DNA of 64,000 nucleotides from Cellvibrio sp. PSBB006 (GTDB taxonomy: Bacteria; Pseudomonadota; Gammaproteobacteria; Pseudomonadales; Cellvibrionaceae): NCBI RefSeq assembly GCF_002162135.1, contig NZ_CP021382.1:4152001-4216000 (forward strand), written 5' to 3'. The translations under genes were made by a program, and so were the position numbers. The notes beneath the pieces were generated by a model. The model was not told the origin of the DNA, ran no database searches, and worked only from the letters and a program-made list of their open reading frames with translations. This document shows positions 46,925-53,013 of this stretch, piece by piece. Position 1 is the first letter of the stretch. Each line of letters begins with the position of its first letter.

Positions 46925-47324
46925 CGCTGATTTTGCAGAAATGGAGATTGCGCCATCATGGGCAAAGCTGCGTAAGATCACGCCAAAAACGTGGCGAACG
47001 GCACAGAAGTGATCAATATATAGCCGAACCTCATCACCCCATCTTGCTTATTGCCAATCAATTTAAACATGACGCCCTAAAAACTGGCGTAATGCCCCCG
47101 CCCAACAATACTTAGAGTAACTGGTGGTTGCATCCAGCGATGCGTAGTCGCACCGGTTGGAGTGATCTAAGCCAGTTGGAACTCCCTTTATTTGTACTCT
47201 AGTATGGTCTTCTCCGGCGCTTCTAATAGCGCCGGTTTTTTTATGCCCGAAATATTTATGCCCAAAGCATTTACAGCGCAGCCGCGATCATTATAATTTC
47301 GCGCTGGCCCTGCAAGGCCAATGT
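46925..47324. other. Gene-free 400 bp before tRNA-Pro with an orphan terminator
   Basis: No ORF is supported. A strong terminator lies at 47214-47242, 290 bp after the last stop codon and 80 bp before tRNA-Pro. The segment about 47100-47210 (ACTGGTGGTTGCATCCAGCG and onward) is GC-balanced and could be a small RNA ending at that terminator; this is a guess from position only. Confidence 0.4.
47214..47242 (+). terminator. Rho-independent terminator, possible end of a small RNA
   Basis: CCGGCGC (47214-47220), loop TTCTAATA, GCGCCGG (47229-47235), then seven T residues. Confidence 0.85.
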
Positions 47325-47401
47325 CGGAGCGTAGCGCAGTCCGGTAGCGCACCTCGTTCGGGACGAGGGGGTCGGAGGTTCGAATCCTCTCGCTCCGACC
47401 A
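47325..47401 (+). tRNA. tRNA-Pro (CGG), island integration target
   Basis: The acceptor CGGAGCG pairs with CGCTCCG, then A and encoded CCA. The anticodon arm CCTCG-TTCGGGA-CGAGG gives anticodon CGG; the T arm is GGTTCGAATCC. 77 nt. The last 25 nt and the next 9 are repeated exactly at 52566-52599, so the 3' part seen here was probably contributed by an integrated element. Confidence 0.97.
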
Positions 47402-47410
47402 GAATCCCGC
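47377..47410. repeat. Left attachment-site repeat (attL)
   Basis: A 34-bp segment starting GGTTCGAATCCTCTCGCTCC and ending AATCCCGC, identical to 52566-52599. It covers the T arm and acceptor end of tRNA-Pro. Homology continues after a short mismatch into the terminator (to about 47453 and 52640). Confidence 0.9.
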
Positions 47411-47415
47411 CAATA

Positions 47416-47452
47416 AGCCCTTGATTGTCCGTTGGATGGTCAGGGGCTTTTT
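47416..47452 (+). terminator. tRNA-Pro terminator, left (weaker) copy
   Basis: AGCCCTTGA (47416-47424) pairs with TCAGGGGCT (47440-47448) with one G-T pair, followed by T residues. The distal copy at 52603-52639 is perfectly paired. Confidence 0.8.
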
Positions 47453-47585
47453 GCTTTTGGGCCTTTTTTAAAGGGGCTATCTTTTTGATCTTTGGGTGGC
47501 GCTTAACTATAGTTATTGGGTTTTGCGAGGCTATGTAACGCATGATGTTACCAAGCAAGGTTGCCTGAACGTCGAGGAAGGAAGC

Positions 47586-48134
47586 ATGATGGACTTAATA
47601 TACGTAATATTTTTCGTCACCATTTTGATTGTGTTTGCAGGCGCTATTAAGAATGGCGGAAAAAGACGGTTTAAATATAACCCCGACGAAGAATGGCCTT
47701 TCGAAAAGCAAAGGCTGATGAGTCACCCAGAACAAGTTATGTATTTTCGCCTTCGCGAAGCCTTACCAGATTATTGTATCTTCTCCCAGGTCCAGCTTTC
47801 CCAATTAGTCCGCGTCAGAAAAGGCCATGATTTTAAGCAATGGTTTAATCGCATTAACAGAATGAGTGCGGATTTTGTCGTAACGGATAAAAGCATGAAC
47901 ACGATAGCCGTCATAGAAGTAGATGATAAAACCCACCAAAGAGCGGACCGAATCGAACAAGATAAGAAAAAAGACAAAGCTTTGAAATCAGCAGGAATAG
48001 AAGTAATCCGCTGGCCAGCAAAACCACTTCCAACAGTAGAAGCAATACGAAGTAGATTCTGGAAGCCCACAGAAGAAACTTTCAAACCGGCAGTAGCTAA
48101 TCAGCCGGACTTAGGTGTATTAAAGGAAGCCTGA
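47586..48134 (+). CDS. DUF2726 protein with N-terminal membrane anchor
   Basis: A 182-aa protein. One N-terminal membrane span (about residues 2-20) precedes a DUF2726 domain: PEQVMYFRLREALPDYCIFSQVQL, RMSADFVVTDKSMNTIAVIEVDD and ALKSAGIEVIRWPAKPLP. The D...ExD pattern recalls Vsr/PD-(D/E)xK endonuclease-like folds, so nucleic-acid binding or cleavage is possible, but catalysis is not proven. GAGGAAGGAAGC precedes the ATG. It is the first gene inside the tRNA-Pro repeat, where an integrase gene would normally be found. Confidence 0.75.
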   Translation: MMDLIYVIFFVTILIVFAGAIKNGGKRRFKYNPDEEWPFEKQRLMSHPEQVMYFRLREALPDYCIFSQVQLSQLVRVRKGHDFKQWFNRINRMSADFVVTDKSMNTIAVIEVDDKTHQRADRIEQDKKKDKALKSAGIEVIRWPAKPLPTVEAIRSRFWKPTEETFKPAVANQPDLGVLKEA

Positions 48135-48166
48135 TTTAAGGCTTGGAAAAAATGGAAGGAAGAACA

Positions 48167-48550
48167 ATGAGAAAGAAAATAATAATCGCAGGAATTCTAT
48201 GCTTGACGGCAACCTGCAATAGCCAGGCGGAAGAATTGGAAAAAGCCAAAACAAACCCCGATGCAATACCGCCTGTAATCACGCTAGAAGATACAGATTT
48301 AGATCTGACGGCGGAACAGCAAATTATTTTGCTCAATCGCAAAAAAGCGGATTGGTTATTAAAAGATATAAAAATAGGTGGGAAACAAATACCAAGCTCT
48401 TACGACAAAAAGATAGAACAATTGCAACGCGAAAAATTCGATGCAAGCCCTCGCCAAACAATCCCCTTAAAAGACTGCATCAAGCCGAATAACGTTATTG
48501 ATAATGATGTTCAGGAATGTTTGAATGGTCGGATAGAGAAATCATGGTAA
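48167..48550 (+). CDS. Small exported hypothetical protein
   Basis: A 127-aa protein with an N-terminal signal (MRKKIIIAGILCLTATCNSQA); either cleaved after SQA or lipidated at the Cys in LTATC. The mature part is charged and has two Cys residues (KDCI, QECL) that may form a disulfide. AAGGAAGAACA before the ATG at 48167 fixes the start. No family recognised. It follows the DUF2726 gene by 32 bp. Confidence 0.6.
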   Translation: MRKKIIIAGILCLTATCNSQAEELEKAKTNPDAIPPVITLEDTDLDLTAEQQIILLNRKKADWLLKDIKIGGKQIPSSYDKKIEQLQREKFDASPRQTIPLKDCIKPNNVIDNDVQECLNGRIEKSW

Positions 48551-48636
48551 ATACAAAATTCAGAGGATAAAAAATTATCGCTGATAGAATCTTAGAGACA
48601 GGAAAATTAACGTAATATTAAAAGGAGAATGAAAAA

Positions 48637-49491
48637 ATGACTTTATTTGAAATTGTTAATGGAGTATTGACCGATCTATATAAACAAGGGGAAAAGGAGC
48701 TTGGAGAAAAACTAGATGAAGAGATAATTAATCAATTAAATTATCTTTCAAATTCCTATAGAGAATTGGCGGACTCATCTAGAGCCCCAATAGACTACAG
48801 CAGTCCTGTAACAAGATTTGCTTACGTATACAAATATGTGGCAACTCATGGAGATTATTTGGTGCAGGTGATGGAAAGAGTTAATAGCCTATTGCGTGGG
48901 CCTATATTCAACAAAGAAAGGGTCTCCGTCGCATGTATCGGAGGAGGTCCCGGATCTGAAATAATAGGCGTTCTAAAATATTTAGAGGAAAGTGAAGAAG
49001 AGAGGGTAGGGGAAATATTGTTTCATCTATTAGATAAAGAGCAGGCATGGAGCGATACCTGGACTGATATAAGACAACAAATAGAAGGCTTTGATGTAAA
49101 TTTCGTTTTCCAAAATTTAGATATAACTAATACAACAACCTGGAAATATGTAAGAAAATTTTTGAACGCGGATTTATTTATCATGAGTTATTTTTACTCT
49201 GAAGTTCAAGGGCTCGGCGATGTCGTTAACACATCAATTAAAAGCATATTAAATGATGCAAAATCCGGATCATTATTTATATATATAGATAATGGAAGCG
49301 ACTATTTCAATGAGAAATTCGACTCTCTGTATGATGAGAGTGAGTTTGAAGTAATCTTCGAGCGCACCAACGATTGGTTCACCCCTAGGTTAAGCGAACA
49401 AGTGGATATACTAAAAAAATACAAAGAAAAATTTAATCAAAATGCAAAGTTAAAAGGAAAGCTATCCATCCGTGCAATTAGAAAGCTATAA
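48637..49491 (+). CDS. Putative SAM-dependent methyltransferase
   Basis: A 284-aa protein, AT-rich (15 of 60 bases are G or C in 49141-49200). An N-terminal helical region (about 1-95) is followed by a Rossmann-type glycine loop VACIGGGPGSEIIGVLKYLE (about residues 97-116). LLDKEQAWSDTW then sits at the acidic-loop position, FQNLDITN at the third, and LFIMSYFYSEVQ after it. This is the arrangement of class I methyltransferases, and CIGGGPGSE recalls fungal rRNA methyltransferase-like proteins. Substrate unknown. A strong AAAGGAG precedes the start. An AlkB-like gene begins 4 nt after its stop. Confidence 0.65.
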   Translation: MTLFEIVNGVLTDLYKQGEKELGEKLDEEIINQLNYLSNSYRELADSSRAPIDYSSPVTRFAYVYKYVATHGDYLVQVMERVNSLLRGPIFNKERVSVACIGGGPGSEIIGVLKYLEESEEERVGEILFHLLDKEQAWSDTWTDIRQQIEGFDVNFVFQNLDITNTTTWKYVRKFLNADLFIMSYFYSEVQGLGDVVNTSIKSILNDAKSGSLFIYIDNGSDYFNEKFDSLYDESEFEVIFERTNDWFTPRLSEQVDILKKYKEKFNQNAKLKGKLSIRAIRKL

Positions 49492-49495
49492 AAAT

Positions 49496-50116
49496 ATGGA
49501 CCTTTTCTCAACCCCTAAGAAATTTGATAGGCTAAACATTCCGGATGCTGAAGTTTTTTATATGCAAAATATGGGTTTCGATATTCCGGATGATGTAGTA
49601 ATGCGAAGGCTGATTGACGAAACCAAATGGAAAGATGAAGAAATATTCTTATATGGAAAAAGACACAAGCAACCTCGGCTGATAGCTTGGTACGGCGACG
49701 ATGATAAAAAAAACTATTCTTACTCTGGAATAAAACTAAACCCTAATCCTTGGACAGAGCTTCTTAAGGAAATAAAACTTCATGTCGAAAAGCTATGCAA
49801 TTACGAATTCAATAGCGTGCTTCTTAATTATTATAGAAGCGAGAAAGATAGCATAGGATTTCATAGTGATGATGAAAAGGAGTTAGGAAATGCACCAGTA
49901 ATTGCATCTGTTAGCTACGGAGAAATTAGAACTTTTATCTTCAAGAGCAAGAAGAATAAAAAGATAAAAAATATTTCATTAAAACTTTCATCAGGAAGCT
50001 TGCTGCTAATGAAAGGGGATACCCAAAAAAATTGGGTTCACGGAATTAATAAAGAGAATGTCAAGTGCGGGCCTCGAATTAATTTGACTTTTAGGCATGT
50101 TGAAGAGGGCGAATGA
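49496..50116 (+). CDS. AlkB-like 2-oxoglutarate/Fe(II) dioxygenase
   Basis: A 206-aa oxidative demethylase-like protein, close in layout to AlkB homologues 2/3. PRLIAWYGDDDKKNYSYSG is the substrate-lid style region. NYYRSEKDSIGFHSDDE contains the iron-binding HxD, NWVHGI the distal His, and PRINLTFR the 2-oxoglutarate-binding Arg. It would remove methyl or alkyl lesions from DNA or RNA. Start at 49496, four bases after the methyltransferase-like gene, so the two are co-translated. Strongly AT-rich, unlike the flanking chromosome. Confidence 0.85.
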   Translation: MDLFSTPKKFDRLNIPDAEVFYMQNMGFDIPDDVVMRRLIDETKWKDEEIFLYGKRHKQPRLIAWYGDDDKKNYSYSGIKLNPNPWTELLKEIKLHVEKLCNYEFNSVLLNYYRSEKDSIGFHSDDEKELGNAPVIASVSYGEIRTFIFKSKKNKKIKNISLKLSSGSLLLMKGDTQKNWVHGINKENVKCGPRINLTFRHVEEGE

Positions 50117-50170
50117 AGGGCCGGATAAATTTACAGTGTTCTAAAATACCAACCAAAGAAGGAGCTTAAA

Positions 50171-50329
50171 ATGCTAGTACTAGGCAGGCGCGAACAGGAA
50201 ACCATAAACATCTATACCAGCGATGGCGATATAGAAATTATGGTAACCAGAATTCATGATAATCAGGTAAAAATCGGAATCACCGCACCTGATGATGTGG
50301 AAATAGTGCGAGGCGAACTGGAAGAATAA
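50171..50329 (+). CDS. csrA: CsrA/RsmA-family RNA-binding regulator (52 aa)
   Basis: Binds GGA motifs in mRNA leaders and alters translation. The sequence starts MLVLGRREQETINI and contains NQVKIGITAPDDVEIVRGEL, aligning along its whole length with E. coli CsrA; Leu4 and the Arg of the C-terminal VxR motif are kept. It is a little short at the C-terminus. AAGAAGGAGCTTAAA precedes the ATG. Its place in a tRNA-linked island makes it an accessory copy, not the chromosomal housekeeping gene. Confidence 0.88.
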   Translation: MLVLGRREQETINIYTSDGDIEIMVTRIHDNQVKIGITAPDDVEIVRGELEE

Positions 50330-50364
50330 AAAAAAAGGGAAGAGCCGTGCGCTTTGCGCGGCTC
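50328..50364 (-). terminator. Terminator after the DUF262 gene (minus strand)
   Basis: The stem GAGCCGTGCG/TGCGCGGCTC (50342-50364, loop CTT, wobble pairs included) is followed on the minus strand by TCCC and nine T residues. It may also stop csrA transcription. Confidence 0.75.
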
Positions 50365-50436
50365 AACTTGAATAAGCTTAAAAAGAAAAGCCCAAATAGC
50401 GATTATCTGCCCACAACTAAAAACTCTTACATTTGA

Positions 50437-51486
50437 TCAAATGTAATCTAACATGATTCTGGTTCTCTCCTTAAGAGAGCTTGCATCATTGGTGCCCTGC
50501 TGAGACATACGATCATATTCAAGCAGCTCAAACTCAGCGCTCTCAATGCTATCTTCAGCCACAATCCTATTGTCGCGTCTTCTATCTTGAAAATCTTCAA
50601 TCTGCTTTCTTGTTAAGGTTATCTGGCCATCAGAATGAAGCTGATGCCTAGCCACTAAAAAATAAACTGGCAACGACGCCTGTGCTGTCAAAAGCTTATC
50701 TTTATCTGTAAATATGGAGGCTAAATATTTGGTGATGCCACCTACCGAATGCAGAATAGTTTCTATATGAGATCTATTTGATTTTTTAAATTTCTTAGCA
50801 AAACCATCTAAATAAACCTTTTTAATGTCGATGATTTTTCCATCCGTAGATAAGCAATGTTCCAGATACAATAGTTTTATAGCGGCTTCTCTATGTTGAT
50901 ATCTTCTGTTGGAAAATCTAACCTTCTTCGTGAATAGGTTCTGCTTAGATAGCTTAGTAACCGCTTCTATACAATGACCCCTAATCGCATTACGCTTTTC
51001 TGCAGCATTAAGTGGCACAGCCTCATTGAGTCGACTAAACATATCTTCAATAAGGTCTAAGTCATCTGTGTCCACAACCATTATTGGTAGCAAAGTTCCA
51101 TCAAATTGATTCTTAATTTTAGGATGATTTTTTGCTAAATCATTGTAGGTCATCCCCCGGAGGTCAATTGATTTATCCTTAAGATAGTCAATATCCTCGC
51201 CAAGAGAGTAATCACCATCTATAAATTGCCAAATTGCTTCTAATCTTTGCCTTCCATCAATGATGGCGTAGTCACGACCCTCAGCATCATTTCTCAGTTT
51301 ATGAAAGTATATTTTCGGAAGATCATATCTATTGATAAGGGAATCCATTAACAACTGCTTTTTAGATAAACTCCATACATCCCCATTTCTCTGGTACTCG
51401 GGAGCGACATCTATTTCGTCTCTAATTGTATAACTAGAATATACCGAGTTGCCGTATGTAAGATGATTGACCTCAAAATGACTCAT
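50437..51486 (-). CDS. DUF262 (ParB-like) domain protein
   Basis: A 349-aa protein of the DUF262 family. The N-terminal part has APEYQRNGDVWSLSKKQLLMDSLI and IIDGRQRLEAIWQFI (the DGxQR motif near residue 78), then MFSRLNEAVPLNAAEKRNA. Members such as GmrS and BrxU use this ParB/Srx-like fold for NTP-dependent nuclease or regulatory work in phage defence. No HNH (DUF1524) domain is obvious in the C-terminal half, so the nuclease, if any, is elsewhere. Its start overlaps the FRG gene by 4 bp, indicating a two-gene system. Well below the flanking chromosome in G+C. Confidence 0.85.
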   Translation of the reverse strand: MSHFEVNHLTYGNSVYSSYTIRDEIDVAPEYQRNGDVWSLSKKQLLMDSLINRYDLPKIYFHKLRNDAEGRDYAIIDGRQRLEAIWQFIDGDYSLGEDIDYLKDKSIDLRGMTYNDLAKNHPKIKNQFDGTLLPIMVVDTDDLDLIEDMFSRLNEAVPLNAAEKRNAIRGHCIEAVTKLSKQNLFTKKVRFSNRRYQHREAAIKLLYLEHCLSTDGKIIDIKKVYLDGFAKKFKKSNRSHIETILHSVGGITKYLASIFTDKDKLLTAQASLPVYFLVARHQLHSDGQITLTRKQIEDFQDRRRDNRIVAEDSIESAEFELLEYDRMSQQGTNDASSLKERTRIMLDYI

Positions 51487-52229
51487 CTATAACTCCCTCT
51501 GATTTTTTGACCAATGCTCGCAAGCTCCGGAAATATTTGAAACCTTCCCAGCCCAAGAAGCTTTAATTCTTCTGCAATCACGGATTTAGAGTCTGCAGGA
51601 ATAATATATTTGCGCACATGAGACCTGTCTCCGACCTCCTCGATTGGCGTTTTACTTCTGCTAATCGTGAAAGCACCGAGTTGGGCCTGTATCCTCGGGT
51701 TATTTCTAGTTGCTATTGCTGCAATAGGCATCAATCCAGCACTATTTTGCATATCAAATTTTATTGTTTCGAAGTCACTCATATAATCACCTTCTTCAAA
51801 AGCAGGAATATATGAGTCCCGTTTAACATTCGTATTGGTATTGAGTTTTCCAGGGTCAAGAACCCAAAGCGCCCCTTCCTTCTTCCTATTTAATTTGGCC
51901 TCACCTGGATCTACAGCAAAATACAATGCTACCAATGGACTTTCGGACCAGTCTAAAAGTCTGGTAGGAACGCCATAATGCTGCATTAAAATTAACCAGT
52001 CAAAATCAGTCTTAGGGGTATGTTTATCTAAGAGATAATTAGCATTTTGCCGAAACTCATTAACTAATGATGTCTCTTTGGGAGGTTTTTTCAAGCGTTC
52101 ATAAGCTGATTCAAGCTTCCAGGAGGAGTCGGCATGACCCCGATACCAAACAGCCCCTCCATTTTGAACCTTATCGACATTAAGATTTTTAATTAAGTCG
52201 GCAACGCATTTAATTTTCTTATCTGCCAT
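51483..52229 (-). CDS. FRG-domain protein
   Basis: A 248-aa protein. The FRG domain is nearly the whole chain: VWYRGHADSSWKLESAYER (with the RG of the family name), MQHYGVPTRLLDWSESPLVALYFAV, and a C-terminal part with NPRIQAQLGAFTIS. FRG domains occur in bacterial defence and toxin contexts; their biochemical activity is unsettled. ATG at 52229 with AAAGGA six bases upstream is chosen over a TTG two codons earlier. It overlaps the DUF262 gene (ATGA), so both products are made from one message. Confidence 0.87.
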   Translation of the reverse strand: MADKKIKCVADLIKNLNVDKVQNGGAVWYRGHADSSWKLESAYERLKKPPKETSLVNEFRQNANYLLDKHTPKTDFDWLILMQHYGVPTRLLDWSESPLVALYFAVDPGEAKLNRKKEGALWVLDPGKLNTNTNVKRDSYIPAFEEGDYMSDFETIKFDMQNSAGLMPIAAIATRNNPRIQAQLGAFTISRSKTPIEEVGDRSHVRKYIIPADSKSVIAEELKLLGLGRFQIFPELASIGQKIRGSYR

Positions 52230-52565
52230 TTGCAATCCTTTAATTTCGATCGAAAGCCATAGTTAACACGATAAACTTATAAGCCTTAAACAGGGGCTTT
52301 AACCATAGTTAAATATCATTAGAGCATAGCCCATGGCGTCAAAGTATAGATGCGGAATCAGCAAGACGCCAGAAATCCAATGGACTGAAATGTCCTATTA
52401 ATAGCGAGGAGTTAATTGTCCCGGAGGAGGAAAAGGCAAAAATGTCGAAAATATGTCGAAATCAATGCGGCCAATAGTGGATCAATGAGGCAAGGAAGGT
52501 GATATAGAGGCCCGTAATTTGGGCCTTTGGGAAGCATAGCGGACTAATGTGGCATGATCAAAAGG
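52230..52565. other. Right end of island, possible attP arm region
   Basis: No ORF is supported in this gene-free stretch. It contains the direct repeat CCATAGTTAA at 52257-52266 and 52303-52312, with a relative on the other strand near the left end (TTAACTATAG, 47504-47513). ATGTCGAAA occurs twice at 52442-52450 and 52453-52461, and GGAC/GTCC symmetry at about 52381-52394. Short repeats like these are what recombinase arm sites look like, but the promoter of the FRG gene must also be here. Confidence 0.45.
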
Positions 52566-52599
52566 GGTTCGAATCCTCTCGCTCCGACCAGAATCCCGC
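52566..52599. repeat. Right attachment-site repeat (attR)
   Basis: 34 bp identical to 47377-47410 at the tRNA-Pro 3' end. It is not part of a tRNA here: no matching 5' half lies upstream, so it is a displaced 3' fragment. Confidence 0.9.
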
Positions 52600-52602
52600 A
52601 AA

Positions 52603-52639
52603 AGCCCCTGATTGTCCGTTGGATGGTCAGGGGCTTTTT
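52603..52639 (+). terminator. Displaced tRNA-Pro terminator, perfect copy
   Basis: AGCCCCTGA (52603-52611) pairs perfectly with TCAGGGGCT (52627-52635), with T residues after it. Probably the original chromosomal terminator of tRNA-Pro, pushed away by the insertion. It encodes the last codons of the minus-strand gene ending at 52627. Confidence 0.82.
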
Positions 52640-53013
52640 GTTGTTGTGGGGACTTCTCTCGGGGAGGAGCTTTTGCTTGAAGGCTTGGCTTTGAGCAGTT
52701 CCTTCTCCATGGATTCCAGCGCTTGGTTCGACAGTGCGATTTCGTTAAGGAGTTTCTTTTCTATATCGTTGATATGTTTGGCATGGGCTGAAGCTTTATT
52801 GTTATTAAGCATGCCCCACAATCCCAACACGATAACACCGAGGGAAACCAATCCTGGGCCTATAAACCAAAAAATAAACGCGGTGGGATTTTCACCGAAA
52901 TAAATATCGCCTCCGTGCCGCCTTTCGATAACCAGATCGGAACCGGCCCAAAATAAAAATAGCAGGCCCGAAAACCCCATCAAAATCATTAATATCTTCC
53001 CTGTGTTCTTCAT
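52627..53013 (-). CDS. Small membrane protein of unknown function
   Basis: A 128-aa protein with two membrane spans (about residues 7-25 and 46-68), separated by ERRHGGDIYFGENP, and a charged C-terminal helix (KHINDIEKKLLNEIALSNQALE). The Ser/Pro/Lys tail TTTKSP and the stop are read from the terminator duplicated at the right end of the tRNA-Pro island. If the terminator was the original one, this gene's end predates the insertion. No family recognised. Confidence 0.55.
   Translation of the reverse strand: MKNTGKILMILMGFSGLLFLFWAGSDLVIERRHGGDIYFGENPTAFIFWFIGPGLVSLGVIVLGLWGMLNNNKASAHAKHINDIEKKLLNEIALSNQALESMEKELLKAKPSSKSSSPREVPTTTKSP

Follow-up and report, generated by a model that had tools for sequence, protein, structure and literature searches.

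How did seven genes come to lie between two exact copies of the end of a tRNA gene, with no integrase among them? The locus is in a 64,000-nt stretch of the Cellvibrio sp. PSBB006 chromosome (the window), in which a tRNA-Pro(CGG) gene (47325..47401, + strand; Rfam match 47325-47398) is the integration target. A preliminary description proposed a tRNA-integrated element bounded by attL and attR, and this proposal is supported. The 3' part of the tRNA gene lies within a 34-nt core, attL (47377..47410, +), that recurs exactly as attR (52566..52599, +). The identity stops at 34 nt, with mismatching bases on both sides, and exact pairs of this length are expected by chance about 7e-12 times in 64 kb. 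The repeat region is found at these two places only, with no third copy in the 5,257,074-bp genome (E<=0.001). Sequence comparison also confirms that the tRNA terminator is duplicated: the left copy (47415..47459, +) and the right copy (52602..52646, +), the latter presumably the displaced native one, are 93% identical, and a T-G wobble in the stem of the left copy is a C-G pair at the same place in the right, as had been described. The reported AT-rich interior (15 of 60 bases G+C at 49141-49200) agrees with the composition of the island as a whole, which is 38.4% GC; the 10-kb flanks are at 52.8% and 49.8%, and elsewhere in the window stretches of 5,155 bp have between 47.6 and 56.4%. No recombinase is seen among the seven likely genes, again as described, and none of the eight matches in a genome-wide search for the integrase domain (PF00589) falls inside the island.

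The seven genes all have open reading frames and are all AT-rich (35-42% GC). Five are on the + strand. The first (47586..48134) encodes a 182-aa DUF2726 protein with a weaker match to DUF559, a kind also found as inovirus cargo. The second (48167..48550) encodes a 127-aa protein of phrog_5121, here called 'short', which is the first cargo gene in several inoviruses; by eye it has a signal-like N-terminus, and it carries the C-terminal motif CIKPNNVIDNDVxxC of phrog_5121, with no match in the phage collection. The third gene (48637..49491) is predicted to encode a SAM methyltransferase-like protein of 284 aa (Methyltransf_34 in relatives), and the adjoining fourth (49496..50116) an AlkB-like 2OG-Fe(II) dioxygenase of 206 aa. 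Relatives of the methyltransferase (E<=1e-20) occur in its own genome only among 398 genomes of the phylum, and none is found in viral contigs and phages. The fifth gene (50171..50329) encodes a 52-aa CsrA-family protein, also cargo in inoviruses L118 and L178. The remaining two form an FRG-DUF262 pair on the - strand, with the 248-aa FRG-domain protein as gene 1 (51483..52229) and the 349-aa GmrSD_N/DUF262 protein as gene 2 (50437..51486). Some of these cargo genes look like anti-virus defences.

The att core does occur beside an integrase gene elsewhere, as the preliminary description had envisaged. A search of IMG/VR returned one contig, L121, that is 90% identical to window 47284-47461 over 178 nt, of which 41 nt lie upstream of the tRNA, and 92% identical from the tRNA onward over 137 nt. 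Genes for a 352-aa Pf-type integrase, Rep and Zot come directly after the tRNA in L121. This integrase shares 44.8-48.3% identity with its counterparts in 14 Pseudomonas phage records, the best 14 of the 405 phage records that match it, and in 11 of these 14 the integrase lies beside an annotated replication initiation gene. PHROG names on proteins of L121 and L122 include integrase, Zot-like, Cox-like excisionase and transcriptional regulator. In Pf prophages (Inoviridae of Pseudomonas), one to ten accessory ORFs accompany the core genes and lie between the core and the att sites, according to the accessible text of PMC7549136. The core-bearing relatives of the island resemble Pf prophages such as PfAC13 in having a tRNA target and in gene order, namely, cargo, repressor, excisionase, helix-destabilizing protein (SSB), coat, Zot, Rep and Int; their accessory genes likewise lie between repressor and att. 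The island differs in having none of the core genes searched for: cargo and att sites alone remain.

The left part of the cargo ties the island to these phages. A phrog_5121 search of 120 family genomes gives 25 places; of the corresponding loci, each about 3 kb long, 6 contain a tRNA gene, one of them being the window. In one genome (G016), 'short' lies inside a 10.1-kb element between 45-nt tRNA-Met repeats (98%) with genes for a tyrosine integrase, Rep and Zot-like, coat-like, SSB-like and repressor-like proteins, the coat by our own reading. The DUF2726 gene matches L122 at 76% over 218 nt and 'short' does so at 68% over 311 nt. Both kinds are present in L115, L122 and L320, all with int, rep and zot, but the island order, DUF2726 before 'short', differs from theirs. 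A CsrA gene comes after 'short' in L118 and after the repressor in L178. When the island is compared with 17 loci by blastn, leader, cargo, tandem-site and att sequence are matched, and the rest is short low-scoring pieces. No inovirus carrying the exact cargo set of the island was found; for the right half, from methyltransferase to FRG with CsrA set apart, the position between the att sites is thus the only tie to phage. Among other loci, L118 (7270-9629), a core-bearing inovirus at tRNA-Met, has, by ORF reading, genes for a 326-aa RelA/SpoT-like and a 370-aa protein on the opposite strand beyond CsrA. At L081 (3696-4130) and L119 (3451-4026), a tRNA-Pro(CGG) gene with no second copy nearby is directly followed by a single gene of the 'short'/'long' type; these genes are perhaps still older inovirus leftovers.

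A second link is a tandem site, TGTCGAAA-N3-TGTCGAAA (52443..52461, +), 123 bp from the attR core. The strict pattern occurs once in the 5.26-Mb genome, and the reversed control gives 0. In L121 and in L111, a core-bearing prophage at tRNA-Arg, TGTCGA-N5-TGTCGA is present 93 bp inside the left core, and L111 has its second site 123 bp before the right core, as in the window. The corresponding left site in the window, expected at about 47470, is absent. In L176 and L179, which use other tRNAs and other sequences (TTTGCCCC and GTACA, picked by eye and then measured), the distances are similar, 92/124 bp and 98/131 bp, respectively. Tandem sites are identified in these four loci only (L111, L121, L176 and L179), and the TGTCGAAA pair was not found in L108, L115, L118, L122, L178, L182, L184 and L185. 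In core-less L180, the integrase-side site is missing and the attR pair has one unit decayed. In IMG/VR, TGTCGAAA-N3-TGTCGAAA is present in at least 120 viral contigs (L200-L319). Among the 120 listed, a Pf-type integrase accompanies it in 76, and since 33 have none of int, rep and zot by phmmer, the pattern is not exclusive to Pf-like phages. Among the matches listed, it lies within -60 to +300 bp of the integrase stop in 15 of 81 cases, and 44 of the 74 integrase-bearing contigs of at least 8 kb, a set chosen for carrying the pattern, have two relaxed sites separated by more than 5 kb on the same strand, against 2 hits in all with one shuffle per contig as control. Also among the matches listed, the tandem site sometimes overlaps the last integrase codons. 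Gel shifts show binding of attL by the integrases of Pf4 and Pf5, and no such tandem site is named in the accessible text of that study (PMC7379572). The tandem sites are likely to be arm-type sites of the integrase. A tandem site with 11-bp spacing at a fixed distance from the repeat could be a simple sign by which some core-less inovirus-derived islands may be recognised. A different motif, CATAGTTAA/TATAGTTA, near both ends of the island was considered as an operator and ruled out, there being only scattered copies in other loci.

What happened to the rest of the phage is indicated at the left end. The similarity to L121 stops at 47461, shortly before the position expected for the left tandem site. 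A leader before the first cargo gene (47537..47582, +) matches the interval between repressor and cargo of L108 and L109, with 78-80% identity over 45-46 nt from 47537, and is recognisable by eye and by pattern (AAGCAAGGTTGCC ... GAGGAAGG) in L111 and L122 too. This leader match is short: by chance, 64 kb of sequence should contain 0.10 copies of its 13-nt core when one mismatch is tolerated. Where the L121 similarity has ended and the leader match has not begun, core-bearing relatives have the genes from integrase through repressor; these are therefore missing between the two, and 47462..47536 would be the deletion joint. A tblastn search of the island with 21 queries from relatives (core proteins of the int, rep, zot, pVI, SSB and repressor kinds, the query set being without pIII and major coat proteins) gave no significant match (best E 0.03). 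The same search did detect integrase fragments in two core-less loci, L177 and L186. The repressor, too, was not found in the island by tblastn; the leader alone is kept. Since no core fragment survives in the joint, the deletion is something we infer from its two sides.

We are thus fairly confident that the island is a core-deleted Pf-like inovirus prophage whose cargo has survived. This origin goes beyond the preliminary description and is most likely the correct one, judging from the sequence of L121, the tandem site at a conserved distance, and the homology of cargo and leader. A Pf-like inovirus with a tyrosine integrase specific for tRNA-Pro(CGG) would have inserted here, rebuilding the 3' end of the tRNA gene (attL) and displacing the native end rightward (attR). 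A later deletion, starting just past the attL terminator and stopping just short of the cargo, would have removed the integrase and its arm site together with Rep, Zot, coat, SSB, excisionase and repressor, and spared DUF2726, the secreted protein, methyltransferase-AlkB, CsrA and FRG-DUF262. The cargo genes would most likely persist because some of them give immunity or phage defence. One integrase-less island may in this way be accounted for through related phages.

The alternative offered earlier, a remnant or an element dependent on a helper integrase, can now be narrowed: the remnant part is supported and the helper part is not, as attL has no tandem site and the only Pf-type integrase in the genome (L036) is of the tRNA-Met type. 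L036 is part of a tRNA-Met prophage; its identity is 79% with the integrase of the tRNA-Met phage and 40% with that of the tRNA-Pro phage, and it was rejected as a helper on that ground, though another strain might supply one. Because the left tandem site and the core genes are missing and the sole Pf-type integrase resides in a tRNA-Met prophage, the island is read as core-deleted and probably immobile, a fixed part of the chromosome. Neither an empty site nor an ancestor was found in genomes of the genus. The gene to the right of the island was not found in the other 20 genus genomes (1/21, the window's own). In one genome, G004, the same tRNA is present and its left flank is related, with other genes to the right and no second att copy within 16.5 kb on that side.

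Core-less loci are also seen elsewhere in the family. A search of 144 family genomes with the repressor alignment (A2) gave 51 matches in 35 genomes, of which the 19 with E<=1e-13 were examined and the 32 weaker ones left out. Ten of the 19 have int, rep and zot and eight do not; one (L183), with just 922 bp upstream, is uncounted. The eight are L109-B, L175, L177, L180, L181, L186, L117 and the left locus of L115, the last two not being independent since they are about 87% identical over three stretches. L109-B and the left locus of L115 each adjoin a core-bearing prophage, to which the core genes on the far side of the tRNA belong. The second att copy is variable: in L180, tRNA-Pro(GGG) has a 79-nt, 90% copy 3.8 kb away; in L186, the copy is 117 nt and 83%; in L181, at tRNA-Pro(CGG), it is weak (72%); in L109-B, it is in the opposite sense; in L117, it was not found; and L175 has a tRNA-Met-like fragment, with no tRNA within its 20 kb. 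Integrase fragments are kept in L186 and L177. A stop lies inside the repressor match in 3 of the 8 core-less and in 1 of the 10 core-bearing loci. The joints differ among the core-less loci, several being in the control region upstream of the repressor, and two of the core-less loci are in one genome, at two tRNA-Pro genes. Like the window, the core-less loci carry cargo or repressor/control genes of inoviruses, with int, rep and zot incomplete, and most lie at the edge of a tRNA gene. They differ in that they keep the repressor or part of it, whereas the window keeps the leader only, and in that a second att copy is seen in only some of them. We read the core-less loci as decay with cargo retention. 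That 8 of 19 strong repressor loci are core-less suggests that filamentous prophages often decay while their passenger genes stay, and defence genes could become established in chromosomes through such decay. None of the literature matches listed describes a core-less inovirus island in its title or at the start of its abstract. In the G000 chromosome (2467446-2480379; L108, L109), a core-bearing tRNA-Met prophage adjoins a core-less element with a repressor and a 424-aa cargo gene, and the opposite sense of the att fragment there would fit an inverted stretch within a tandem att array. In L180 (13749-15652), a retron-like reverse transcriptase (YADDLTF, by eye) and a 312-aa partner are directly after the right repeat.

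The recurrence of core-less loci, two of them in one genome at two tRNA-Pro genes, raises the possibility that the island is a live inovirus satellite, namely, a cargo element that relies on the integrase, Rep and coat of a helper Pf-like phage and is spread through packaging. Filamentous satellites exist: RS1 is small and cargo-carrying, is not known to have coat genes and keeps replication genes. The island is like RS1 in the first three respects but, unlike RS1, has no Rep gene or other replication gene. It has intact att cores and one intact tandem site, none of its seven ORFs is interrupted, and in several core-less loci the repressor control region is kept. However, the integrase-side tandem site is missing both here and in L180, this genome has no matching integrase, and the integrase fragments in some core-less relatives, with the excess of repressor stops (3/8 vs 1/10), look like decay. 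We consider a satellite unlikely. Because several joints fall in the repressor control region, a bolder reading is retained as a long shot: the core-less tRNA islands of the family would be a class of inovirus parasites or hitchhikers, with cargo and often a repressor between two att cores, moved by the integrase, Rep and coat of co-resident Pf-like phages, and with cargo that defends the host.

Core deletion from an inovirus also has to be set against an island of non-phage origin, for example a cis-mobilizable ICE relative, that uses the same tRNA. Like a cis-mobilizable element (CIME), the island is att-flanked and integrase-less, its FRG-DUF262 pair is also on contigs that look P2-like, and relatives of its AlkB protein are on 73 plasmid records. 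But there is no conjugation or ICE gene among the seven, L111 has the same right tandem site at the same distance, and the left genes and leader are inovirus cargo, which makes a non-phage origin quite improbable. That the repeat is a segmental duplication of the tRNA end unrelated to integration is scarcely credible, given that GC changes sharply at the repeats, that L121 has an integrase and phage genes at this tRNA, and that the tandem site lies at the distance seen in phage; nothing but the missing integrase speaks in its favour.

Two gene pairs of the cargo, FRG-DUF262 and methyltransferase-AlkB, are worth testing for phage defence. With PADLOC models, the FRG protein matches PDC-S15 (1.1e-47) and the DUF262 protein NsnA (2.9e-29). 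PDC-S15 is a candidate defence family; the island protein differs in being paired with a DUF262 gene. Frg is described in the accessible text of PMC9503650 as an immunity domain of the ART superfamily and a possible NADase. A sequence search of the PDB finds no relative of the FRG protein at E<=0.01. Beyond the window, the pairing holds in 17 of 20 genome loci and in 3 of 3 viral loci. The viral loci L192 and L194 look P2-like, not inoviral, and the third, L193, is very short. We consider the pair a candidate two-gene defence system, in which the FRG protein is probably an NAD-using effector with an ADP-ribosyltransferase fold, held or triggered by its DUF262 partner. FRG and DUF262 form a conserved, mostly overlapping pair in several phyla (window 50437-52229; L040-L057, L192-L194). 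The order of the other pair, a methyltransferase-like gene and then AlkB as at window 48637-50116, is also present on two cyanobacterial plasmids (L196, L197).
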